This document shows positions 46,529-49,300 of a stretch of 64,000 bases of DNA, piece by piece. Made by a program: the position numbers and the translations under genes. The notes under the pieces were generated by a model. That model did not search any database and had not been told where the DNA came from. It saw nothing but the letters and a program-made list of their open reading frames with translations. The stretch comes from Actinomycetospora succinea (GTDB lineage: Bacteria > Actinomycetota > Actinomycetes > Mycobacteriales > Pseudonocardiaceae), in the NCBI RefSeq assembly GCF_004363095.1, contig NZ_SNYO01000008.1, positions 186,001 to 250,000 on the forward strand, given 5' to 3'. How positions within the stretch are numbered: position 1 is the first letter of the stretch; each line of letters begins with the position of its first letter.

Positions 46529-47769
46529 GTCCCGCCGCCCCGGTCGCCGACGTCGTCGTGGCCGGCGCGGGACCCGCCGGCCGGGCTCTCGCGCGCTCGT
46601 GCGCCGCCCGCGACCTGCGCACCCTGCTCGTCGACCCCCGCCCGCAGCGGGCCTGGACCCACACCTACGGCGCCTGGACCCACGAGCTGCCCGACGACCT
46701 GCCCGGCGAGCTCGTCGCCGCGCGCGGGCCGGGCGTGGCGATCGCGCAGCGCACCCACGAGCTCCCCGACGAGTACGTCGTGCTCGACACCGCCGCGCTC
46801 CAGGCGCACCTCACCGACCCCGTGGTCGCCGTCCGGCGCGGGCGCGGTGTCGGTGTGACCCCGGCCGGCGCCGGGCGCCACCCGTCCCTGGTGCTCGAGG
46901 ACGGCAGCACCGTCACCGCCCGCGTCGTCGTCGACGCCACCGGCGCCCGCCAGGCCCTGGCCCGGCGCGGGACGGCCCGCGAGATCGACAGCGGCCGCCC
47001 GCGGGCCGAGCAGACGGCGTTCGGGGTGGTCGTGCCCCGCGCGGTGGCGGCCCGGGTCAGCGGCGACCGGCTGCTGTTCATGGACTGGCGCCCCGCCCAC
47101 GGCCGGCCCGGCTGGCCGACGTTCCTCTACGCGGTGCCCCTCGACGACGAGCGGGTGCTGCTCGAGGAGACCTCGCTCGCCCGCCGTCCGGGGCTCCCCA
47201 TGCCCGAGCTGCGCGCCCGGCTGCGGGCCCGGCTGCGCGCGGCGGGGCTGACCGACGCGGAGATCCCCGACGACCCCGCCGACGTCGAGAAGGTGCGCTT
47301 CCCCGTCGACTCGCCGCGACACCGCTCCCCCTCGGGCGTCGTCGCGGTCGGCGCGGCCGACCCGCTCGTGCACCCGGCGTCGGGCTTCAGCCTCGCCACC
47401 TCGCTGTGCCTGTCGCCGCGCGTCGCCACCGTGCTCGCCGACGCCCTCCGCGGCGGGACGGAGCCGATCGGCGTCGCCCGCGCGGCCCGCCGGGTCGTGC
47501 GCTCCCCCGCGGCGGTCACCGTGCACGCCCTGCGCCGCCGCGGCCTGGAGACGCTGCTGGCGATGCCGCCCGGCGAGGTGCCGGCGTTCTTCGAGCGCTT
47601 CTTCTCGCTGCCCGACGGCCACCGCCGCGCCTATCTGGACGCCCGTGAGGACGTCGGCGCATCCCTGGCGGCCATGACGTCGTTGTTCGGACGACTGACA
47701 CCCCGCCTCCGCGGTCACCTGATCAGGGGAACGCTGTTCGGGGCCCGGAGCGTCCGAACGGAGCAGTAG
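46525..47769 (+). CDS. Lycopene-cyclase-like FAD-dependent oxidoreductase
   Basis: The 414-aa flavoprotein has an N-terminal dinucleotide fold (DVVVAGAGPAGRALARSCA). WTHTYGAWTHELPDDL follows, and PTFLYAVPLDDERVLLEETS carries the FLEET-type motif of CrtY/CrtL lycopene beta-cyclases. These enzymes close beta-ionone rings without net redox change. No phytoene synthase, desaturase or isoprenoid gene is nearby, so it is an orphan. Carotenoid genes may lie elsewhere, or the enzyme may cyclise another terpenoid. It begins at GTG 46525, coupled to the preceding unknown gene. The C-terminal 90 residues are basic and helical. Confidence 0.85.
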   Translation: MSPAAPVADVVVAGAGPAGRALARSCAARDLRTLLVDPRPQRAWTHTYGAWTHELPDDLPGELVAARGPGVAIAQRTHELPDEYVVLDTAALQAHLTDPVVAVRRGRGVGVTPAGAGRHPSLVLEDGSTVTARVVVDATGARQALARRGTAREIDSGRPRAEQTAFGVVVPRAVAARVSGDRLLFMDWRPAHGRPGWPTFLYAVPLDDERVLLEETSLARRPGLPMPELRARLRARLRAAGLTDAEIPDDPADVEKVRFPVDSPRHRSPSGVVAVGAADPLVHPASGFSLATSLCLSPRVATVLADALRGGTEPIGVARAARRVVRSPAAVTVHALRRRGLETLLAMPPGEVPAFFERFFSLPDGHRRAYLDAREDVGASLAAMTSLFGRLTPRLRGHLIRGTLFGARSVRTEQ

Positions 47770-47837
47770 CGGTACGCTCGCGAACCGTAATCGTGACGGG
47801 TTCGTGACCCGCCACCGAGGAGGAGGGATTCTCCGCG

Positions 47838-48284
47838 ATGGGTGCTTACCAGACCGTGGCCGTCGGCACGGACGGCTCGGAGTCGTCGTTCCGCGCCGTC
47901 GACCGCGCGGCGACGATCGCGGCCGACAGCAAGGCCCTGCTGCTCATCATCTGCGCCTACAAGCCGGCGAAGTCGACCGGCGAGGCCGAGCAGGCGCTGG
48001 GCGAGGACGCGGCCTTCCACGTCATCGGGTCGACGCCGGCCGAGGAGACGCTGCGCGACGCCCGCGAGCGCGCCGCCGCCAAGGGCTCGGTCGAGATCGA
48101 CACCGTGGCCGTGCAGGGCGACCCGATCGAGCGGGTCGTCGAGGTCGTCACCGACCGCAAGGCCGACCTGGTCGTCGTCGGCAACCGGGGCCTGAACAGC
48201 CTCGCGGGCCGCCTGCTCGGCTCGGTCCCGCAGGGCATCTCCCGGCGCGCCGGCAGCGACGTCCTCATCGTCCACACCACGTGA
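47838..48284 (+). CDS. Universal stress protein, Rv1636-like cAMP-binding type
   Basis: The 148-aa protein closely parallels M. tuberculosis Rv1636: AYQTVAVGTDGSESSFRAVD at the start, then ADLVVVGNRGLNSLAGRLLG and the C-terminus ISRRAGSDVLIVHTT. The G-x-x-G...GRLLGS loop binds adenine nucleotides. Rv1636 and its M. smegmatis homologue bind cAMP with high affinity. Here the stop overlaps the start of an adenylyl cyclase gene by 4 bases, strongly supporting a cAMP-linked role. ATG 47838 follows GGAGGAGGGA. It is probably cytoplasmic and dimeric. Confidence 0.93.
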   Translation: MGAYQTVAVGTDGSESSFRAVDRAATIAADSKALLLIICAYKPAKSTGEAEQALGEDAAFHVIGSTPAEETLRDARERAAAKGSVEIDTVAVQGDPIERVVEVVTDRKADLVVVGNRGLNSLAGRLLGSVPQGISRRAGSDVLIVHTT

Positions 48285-49300
48285 CGGCGGGTCCGGACCC
48301 CGCGCCCGCCGACGCCGAGCGGTGGGCGCGGGCGCAGGAGCGGATCGAGGACCTGCTCCTCCGCGGCCCCCGGACCATGACGCGCGGCGAGGTCCAGGAC
48401 CGCACCGGCTTCACCCCGGAGCACACCTCGCGGCTGTGGAGCTCGCTCGGCTTCCCCGCCACGCCAGACGACGTGCGCGGGTTCGCCGAGGCCGACGTCG
48501 ACGCGCTCGAGCTCTCGGGGCGCCTGCTCGACGAGGACACGTTCGACGAGGCCGAGGAGCTGGCAGTCGCCCGCGCGCTCGGCCAAGGCCTCGGCCGCCT
48601 CGCCGAGTGGCAGGCGACGCTCGTGCGCCGCACCATCGCCGACGCGGGCCTCGCCCACGACCCGGACGCGATCGTCGACGCCGTCGAGGCGCTCGTCCCG
48701 ACCCTCGAGAAGCTCCAGTCCTACGTTTGGCGCCGCCACCTCGCCGTGACCGCCGGGCGGATGCTCTCGACGCTCGCCCGCCCCGACGGTGACGGGCCGT
48801 CGGAGAACCGCGTCGTGGTGGGCTTCGCGGACATCGTCGGGTTCACCAGCCTGTCCCGGAAGATCGACGAGGTCGAGCTGCGCGCGCTGCTCGAACGCTT
48901 CGAGACGGTGTCCGCCGACGTCGTCGCGCGCCGCCGCGGGCGCATCGTCAAGACCCTCGGCGACGAGATCCTCTTCGTCTGCGAGCGCGTCGAGGACGCC
49001 GTCGACATCGCCTTCCGCCTCCACGAGGAGGTGCCCGACGACGAGGGCCGCCTCGCCCTGCGCGTGGGGCTCGCGCTCGGCGAGGTCCTCCCCCGCTACG
49101 GCGACGTCTACGGCCCCGTCGTCAACATCGCCAGCCGCCTGACCTCCGAGGCGCGCCCGGGCACGGTGCTCGTCGACGAGGACCTCACCGAGGCCCTGCG
49201 CGCCACCGACCTGGACCTCGAGATCCGGTCGGTACCCGGCGTCGCCGTCCGCGGCTACCGGCACCTGCGCCCGCACGTGGTGCGCGAGCGCCAGCGTTAG
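48281..49300 (+). CDS. Class III adenylyl cyclase with N-terminal regulatory domain
   Basis: The 339-aa protein has a cyclase homology domain at about 177-330. It carries all canonical residues: metal ligands Asp184 (FADIVGFTS) and Asp228, ATP-specifying Lys224 and Asp275 (KTLGDE, YGDVYG), and transition-state Asn282 and Arg286 (VNIASRL). The spacing is that of Rv1264-like class IIIc cyclases. Residues 1-170 form a helical N-terminal module, with EDLLLRGPRTMTRGEVQDRT and a MerR-like DVDALELSGRLLDEDTFDE, which probably autoinhibits or senses pH or ligands. It is soluble. The GTG start overlaps the stress-protein stop, so cyclase and cAMP-binding protein are made together. Confidence 0.93.
   Translation: MTAGPDPAPADAERWARAQERIEDLLLRGPRTMTRGEVQDRTGFTPEHTSRLWSSLGFPATPDDVRGFAEADVDALELSGRLLDEDTFDEAEELAVARALGQGLGRLAEWQATLVRRTIADAGLAHDPDAIVDAVEALVPTLEKLQSYVWRRHLAVTAGRMLSTLARPDGDGPSENRVVVGFADIVGFTSLSRKIDEVELRALLERFETVSADVVARRRGRIVKTLGDEILFVCERVEDAVDIAFRLHEEVPDDEGRLALRVGLALGEVLPRYGDVYGPVVNIASRLTSEARPGTVLVDEDLTEALRATDLDLEIRSVPGVAVRGYRHLRPHVVRERQR

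Follow-up and report, generated by a model that had tools for sequence, protein, structure and literature searches.

The window, a stretch of 64,000 nucleotides (G000:C8:186001-250000), lies in the 6.47-Mb genome of Actinomycetospora succinea. On its forward strand it carries the gene of a universal stress protein (USP) followed directly by that of a class III adenylyl cyclase. The features of the locus, with the evidence for each in brackets, are:

47804..47815, + strand: imperfect inverted repeat GTGACCCGCCAC, GTGAC-N2-GTCAC, directly 5' of the USP ribosome site (sequence)
47817..47827, + strand: strong Shine-Dalgarno (SD) stretch of the USP gene, GAGGAGGAGGG (sequence; pairing energy with the 16S tail -13.0)
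47838..48284, + strand: Rv1636-type USP, putative cAMP-binding sponge, 148 aa, ATG start (Pfam Usp 4.4e-24; 5AHW and 1TQ8 as best PDB matches; pocket residues)
48281..49300, + strand: class III adenylyl cyclase with N-terminal regulatory domain, 339 aa, GTG start (Guanylate_cyc 1.3e-14; Ad_Cy_reg 2.4e-5; Foldseek match to the Rv1264 holoenzyme, best E 5.5e-19)
48281..48284, + strand: GTGA, cyclase start with the USP stop TGA inside it, a 4-base overlap without a Shine-Dalgarno stretch of its own (sequence; SD energy +0.7)
48281..48775, + strand: N-terminal all-helical regulatory domain of the cyclase, residues 1-165, in which the family shows a faint MerR-like helix-turn-helix signature (AlphaFold; PF16701)
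48803..49264, + strand: cyclase catalytic domain, residues 175-328, with D184, K224, D228, D275, N282 and R286 (domain match; residue alignment)

The USP and cyclase frames are both open, conserved and folding, which excludes a pseudogene or misframe. The 4-base overlap described by the sequence-only reading is present, with the USP stop TGA inside the GTGA, and GTGA occupies the junction in all 17 genus loci read. In the window the GTG is the sole start codon between 150 nt before and 60 nt after it. By itself the overlap is weak evidence, because an ACG-TGA ending gives GTGA on its own.

A lycopene cyclase-like gene (46540-47769) on the same strand ends 68 bases before the USP gene and could be co-transcribed with it. 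Farther upstream lie a protein without a Pfam match and a short-chain dehydrogenase, and downstream of the cyclase, on the opposite strand, are another protein without a Pfam match and a PadR-type regulator. The inverted repeat is a possible operator; similar GTGAC-N2-GTCAC-like repeats are found in ten close members of the genus (L008-L017) and are not seen upstream of the USP gene in the alignment of the remaining seven genus loci. A scan with TGTGA-N6-TCACA, which we took as the consensus of Crp-type operators, gave no site with fewer than four mismatches in the 160 nt upstream at the 17 genus loci.

The stress protein and its nucleotide pocket

The accessible text of PMC11107214 presents Rv1636 and MSMEG_3811 as a cAMP sponge and reports that deletion of msmeg_3811 from M. 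smegmatis lowered bound cAMP without a significant change in free cAMP. In the available part of another source (PMC4169665), Rv1636 is an expression control. The sequence-only reading placed the window USP close to Rv1636, and this is borne out: the protein is a member of the Rv1636/MSMEG_3811 subfamily, distinct by sequence from other USPs. Like its mycobacterial relatives it has a single USP domain. It is 51% identical to MSMEG_3811 and, among solved proteins, scores 134.5 bits against 5AHW (MSMEG_3811 with cAMP) and 129.9 against 1TQ8 (Rv1636), while the next USP reaches 46.7. With a 40-row profile of the USP family, the corresponding scores are 196.5, 194.7 and 70.5 bits. The AlphaFold model (mean pLDDT 78.8, below 50 in the lid at 48-65 and in residues 121-127) has four chains of cAMP-bound 5AHW as its top Foldseek matches, and AMP- or dAMP-bound USPs are among the further ones. 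As found here by sequence, the subfamily is wider than the genera for which binding is reported, and the window USP is the first gene of a pair, whereas Rv1636 is monocistronic in the M. tuberculosis complex (PMC11107214, accessible text).

In 5AHW, cAMP is hydrogen-bonded by G10, S14, S16, A40, G114, V116 and T146 of MSMEG_3811 (PMC8126637, accessible text). Six of these seven contacts are identical in the window USP (G10, S14, S16, A40, G114 and T146), and V116 is replaced by R, giving GNRG in place of the mycobacterial GNVG. The lining positions A38, T39, F42, M61 and L99 are I, C, K, V and V in the window. In an alignment of 90 USP rows, which includes near-duplicates and the window twice, G10, S14, A40, G114 and T146 are invariant, position 16 is S in 77 rows, and position 116 is R in 84, K in 3 and V in 3 (only MSMEG_3811, Rv1636 and L121). 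With R at position 116 in 84 of the 90 rows, the experimentally tested kind of pocket is therefore the exception. Because the contact at position 116 is made by the backbone, the change from V to R does not imply that cAMP binding is lost; the model is poor close to this position, in the two low-confidence stretches given above. A preference of the window USP for cAMP over ATP cannot be assumed from its residues. Among the other USPs of the same genome, two cover most of the pocket in the alignment, with H or T at position 16 and E or a gap, respectively, at position 146; in the others the pocket cannot be read because they are partial or too divergent.

A second Rv1636-like USP, 60% identical to the window USP, is encoded on another contig (L120, G000:C4:97476-97925). 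No cyclase of the window family adjoins it, it is matched in the other genomes of the genus too, and the USP tree, with two rows for it, shows a long-branched duplicate that is specific to the genus. Since the genus has this second, unpaired protein, the pair is not its sole possible buffer. In the same tree, a branch with 97 support splits 11 rows from the 79 that include the window USP; the 11 comprise Rv1636, MSMEG_3811 and genomes of f8, a family called Nocardia-like here from one join in the cyclase tree (L124 with Nocardia transvalensis). Both trees were built by a quick method, with SH-aLRT as the sole measure of branch support.

The cyclase and its mycobacterial relatives

The six class III catalytic residues that the sequence-only reading had listed (Asp184, Lys224, Asp228, Asp275, Asn282 and Arg286) are all present in the window and invariant in 58 of 58 cyclase rows, one from the window and 57 from among the best 80 named loci (of at least 573 relatives). 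We take them to be the two metal-binding Asp, the Lys/Asp pair for the purine, and the transition-state Asn and Arg. Judged by these residues, the catalytic site is apparently intact, and the enzyme is probably active. D228 aligns with D265 of Rv1264, and exchange of the latter for Ala gives an inactive enzyme (PMC8856561, accessible text).

The best solved relative is Rv1264 (E 1.3e-22 with the sequence alone, 3.5e-45 with a profile), a pH-sensing class III cyclase with an inhibitory N-domain, and the two proteins share domain order and catalytic residues. The AlphaFold model of the window cyclase (mean pLDDT 92.1) matches the Rv1264 holoenzyme over near-full length, with a higher TM score for the active state (0.73, 1Y11) than for the chains of the inhibited state (0.53-0.56). 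The aligned folds are 27-28% identical in sequence, and the part that precedes the aligned region is some 34 residues shorter in the window cyclase than in Rv1264 (query 36 vs chain 70). The N-terminal helical domain, earlier proposed as a likely sensor, is supported as a regulatory domain of the Rv1264 kind by the Foldseek match and by PF16701 (Ad_Cy_reg), which is matched in 56 of the 58 rows at E up to 1; the window itself scores 24.7 bits, under the curated cut-off of 28.6. As for a sensor role, Rv1264 offers a good analogy, from which some sensory input may be supposed. H153 aligns with H192 of Rv1264, a residue that presumably has a role in the pH response, and is nearly invariant among the 58 rows. 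The start of the N-domain (48380-48550) resembles a MerR-type helix-turn-helix; MerR_1 is weakly matched in 11 of the 58 rows (best E 0.0015), and the window stretch alone gives no MerR match.

The nearest named cyclase, among the matches listed, is from Actinomycetospora straminea (90% identity), followed by two more from Actinomycetospora. Orthology of the window cyclase with Rv1264 was considered and rejected. The host genome has a separate, closer relative of Rv1264 (L130, G000:C6). In the tree, L122 of genome G043 (E 9e-137 to Rv1264) and L130 form a group of their own with 100 support, to which the window cyclase does not belong; L122 and L130 are both long branches. G043 and G128, taken as mycobacterial from their USPs, have Rv1264-type cyclases that do not adjoin the Rv1636 gene. 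Against the window cyclase profile, L144 of G128 scores 176 bits, above the 149 bits of the Rv1264 relative of G043. Our guess is that L144 is Rv2212, and Rv2212/MSMEG_4279 may belong to the same broad group as the window cyclase; L144 does not adjoin the USP of its genome. The Rv2212 orthologue of M. smegmatis is reported to be activated by fatty acids (PMC5562752, accessible text), and control by fatty acids is reported for the Rv2212 group (PMC5562752; title of a reference in PMC8856561). Among titles and abstract openings of the open-licence literature, with subscription papers largely outside, no description of the USP-cyclase gene pair was found. The pair is a new genetic arrangement of known parts.

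Distribution and setting of the pair

Sixty-one genomes, the host and 60 relatives, were surveyed. A cyclase match is found in 34 of them at E<=1e-20 and in 32 at E<=1e-55, and in 28 of the 32 the USP is directly upstream by coordinates (17 of these 28 are from one genus). At the 30 loci that were read, the USP is present in all except L031 and L036. Of the 18 genomes of the genus, 17 have the pair; the one without it, G013, has a completeness of 59%. Outside the genus, 43 genomes divide into 12 with both genes, 3 with the cyclase only, 2 with the USP only and 26 with neither (Fisher p 2e-6, phylogeny uncorrected).

Among the best 80 named loci of at least 573 confirmed relatives, the USP adjoins the cyclase at 52, which are from Pseudonocardiaceae, Geodermatophilaceae, Streptomyces and two MAGs. 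Both these loci and the surveyed genomes extend the adjacency beyond the one genome in which it had been noticed. The other 28 comprise 17 from a group of Rhodococcus, Rhodococcoides, Prescottella, Nocardia and Tomitella, 7 from Geodermatophilaceae, one Streptomyces, two MAGs and Actinokineospora xionganensis; L079 starts 122 bases before its match, which puts the upstream gene outside view. In A. xionganensis (L117:2901-3776), USP and cyclase are separated by an IS605-type OrfB/TnpB gene, a natural interruption. At the 53 named loci with a USP match (in the same best 80 of 573), the two are separate ORFs and fused in none.

The host genome has 7 cyclase, 9 USP and 5 cNMP-binding matches, and its cyclase and USP matches form one adjacent couple only. 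Candidate cAMP effectors therefore exist in the form of the five cNMP-binding matches. On another contig (L129, G000:C2:245744-254496), a cNMP-binding protein has two more USP matches no farther than about 9 kb away.

A comparison between groups took in the gene families that flank 77 of the best 80 loci (without L091, L103 and L113) at distances up to about 4 kb. Saccharopolyspora and two MAG loci have no flanking family in common with any group, and Streptomyces has one in common with Geodermatophilaceae and one with each of two USP-less groups; in all three cases, 0-1 families are common with any other USP-paired group. Amycolatopsis, Prauserella and Saccharomonospora have flanking families common only to Actinophytocola and to Actinokineospora plus Herbihabitans. 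Actinomycetospora has four in common with Pseudonocardia and two with Geodermatophilaceae. That the pair is kept across such different settings argues for a functional tie. Chance adjacency is ruled out by the counts in relatives and named loci and by the changed neighbours. One Streptomyces copy of the pair is on a 267-kb linear plasmid (L038, NZ_CP108139.1), a possible route of spread. The two trees disagree on where the Streptomyces pair came from: Streptomyces falls inside Pseudonocardiaceae on the cyclase tree and beside Geodermatophilaceae on the USP tree (84 support).

The repeated absence of the USP argues that the tie is not obligatory. Seven USP-less loci of Geodermatophilaceae share 15 flanking families with their USP-bearing kin (best 80 of 573), and permissive tblastn found no trace of the USP at them (best E 0.19), which suggests that nothing but the USP was lost. 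Because cyclase and flanks were kept without it, the sponge is dispensable in these seven. A class-wide sample of 196 genomes has a cyclase of the broad family in 107 and the USP in 36, and the USP is beside a window-type cyclase, by coordinates, in 3 of the 36 (G000, G093 and G163); many of these are draft genomes, where neighbouring genes may be split between contigs and their adjacency missed. The 12 genomes with the top cyclase scores all carry the USP, compared with 24 of the 184 others (p 3e-10, with the cut set post hoc at a natural gap in the scores). In f8, the genes are apart in all five genomes that have both at the cut-offs used. On the cyclase tree, 66 adjacent and 35 non-adjacent rows need a minimum of 14 changes of adjacency. 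The pairing is thus a feature of Pseudonocardiaceae and Geodermatophilaceae, with some Streptomyces and a few others besides; elsewhere the genes are often apart.

Translation of the pair and the readings it allows

The cyclase start lies within 25 nt of the USP stop or overlaps it in 56 of 66 pairs; 22 overlap and 15 have the -4 arrangement, in counts where the choice of start favours -4 and 7 of the 66 have no start in range. SD pairing energies were calculated with what we took to be the anti-SD letters of the 16S tail. Their medians are -9.3 for the USP, -1.8 for the cyclase and -4.2 for random windows (69 of 81 pairs; the other 12 lack a usable start and were dropped), the USP having the stronger site in 63 of the 69. 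In the window the two energies are -13.0 and +0.7. With a strong SD stretch for the USP and one that is nearly absent for the cyclase, an excess of USP and translation of the cyclase by reinitiation, in unequal amounts, are predicted, and translational coupling of the cyclase to the USP is likely. The sequence-only reading went further and had source and sink of cAMP made in fixed proportion. This is overstated, since the SD strengths predict unequal output and the -4 overlap is found in 15 of 66 pairs; moreover, some loci have the cyclase without the USP, and some genomes keep both genes apart. In slow-growing mycobacteria the concentration of Rv1636 is equivalent to that of cAMP (PMC11107214, accessible text), which fits a sponge in excess of the enzyme.

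Other explanations of the pair have to be weighed. The USP might mainly bind ATP or another adenine nucleotide; the operon would then tie cAMP output to a sensor of energy or stress, and no cAMP would be sequestered. The GNRG-x9-GS loop, unlike the mycobacterial GNVG, and the fold matches to AMP- or dAMP-bound USPs would suit this reading, as would the single pocket indicated by mutation of G10 or G114 in MSMEG_3811, which impairs binding of both cAMP and ATP (PMC8126637, accessible text). However, the side-chain contacts S16 and T146 are kept, unlike in the two alignable USPs of the same genome, Rv1636 binds cAMP better than ATP (PMC11107214, accessible text), and the genetic linkage is to a source of cAMP. 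We regard a mainly ATP-binding USP as unlikely, but still as a rival to be taken seriously. The same holds, with somewhat more doubt, for a USP that acts as a direct partner of the cyclase, for example as a feedback inhibitor or activator sensing cAMP or ATP, and not as a bulk sponge. Such a partnership could account for the tight adjacency (56 of 66 pairs), the retention of the pair amid different neighbours and the near absence of a cyclase ribosome site, but the absence of fusion at the 53 USP-bearing loci, the several loci that keep the cyclase without the USP and the separated genes of f8 speak against it. In addition, purification of MSMEG_3811/Rv1636 is reported to have brought no other major protein along (PMC11107214, accessible text).

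The pair could also be two stress genes placed on a common promoter for timing only, with no functional interplay. Short operons are common in actinobacteria, and across the class the two genes adjoin only here and there (3 of 36 USP genomes), with 14 changes of adjacency on the cyclase tree. Yet the same two subfamilies stay together while their neighbours change, and they co-occur even when unlinked, with the USP in 12 of the 12 class-sample genomes closest in cyclase, by the post hoc cut, against 24 of the 184 others; we consider a tie of timing alone very improbable.

We judge a compact operon that makes a cAMP source together with a cAMP-binding sponge to be the most likely reading and hold it with moderate confidence. 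What computation shows is the order and overlap of the genes, their conservation, the folds, and the residues of pocket and active site. Points that weigh against this reading are the R at position 116, the few adjacent cases in the class-wide sample, the seven USP-less loci of Geodermatophilaceae, the second, unpaired USP of the genus, the flanking families common to Actinomycetospora and Pseudonocardia, the PF16701 score of the window cyclase under the cut-off, and the lack of a significant change in free cAMP in the M. smegmatis deletion strain. On the reading as source and sponge, the USP would be translated first, probably in excess, from its strong ribosome site, and the cyclase, without such a site, by reinitiation of ribosomes leaving the USP gene. 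The Rv1264-like N-domain would tune cyclase activity to a signal of the cell, which by analogy may be pH or a lipid. The USP would capture part of the cAMP produced, and free cAMP for cNMP-binding effectors would rise only when production exceeds the capacity of the sponge. This capacity would provide a threshold and dampen noise, and in this sense we infer buffering.

A bolder form of the same idea, which we put forward as speculative and rather unlikely, is a dedicated, self-buffered cAMP generator, in which a sensor cyclase is made together with an excess of sponge that also touches or feeds back on the cyclase, and in which the operon sets the threshold. If true, it would be a two-gene source-and-sponge module spread across several families of actinobacteria, and would stand for a general design of second-messenger systems in bacteria. 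With the Rv1636 subfamily tied to a cAMP-making enzyme in several of these families, the sponge idea becomes a testable two-gene unit outside mycobacteria, for which paired, unpaired and USP-less relatives are available as natural comparisons.
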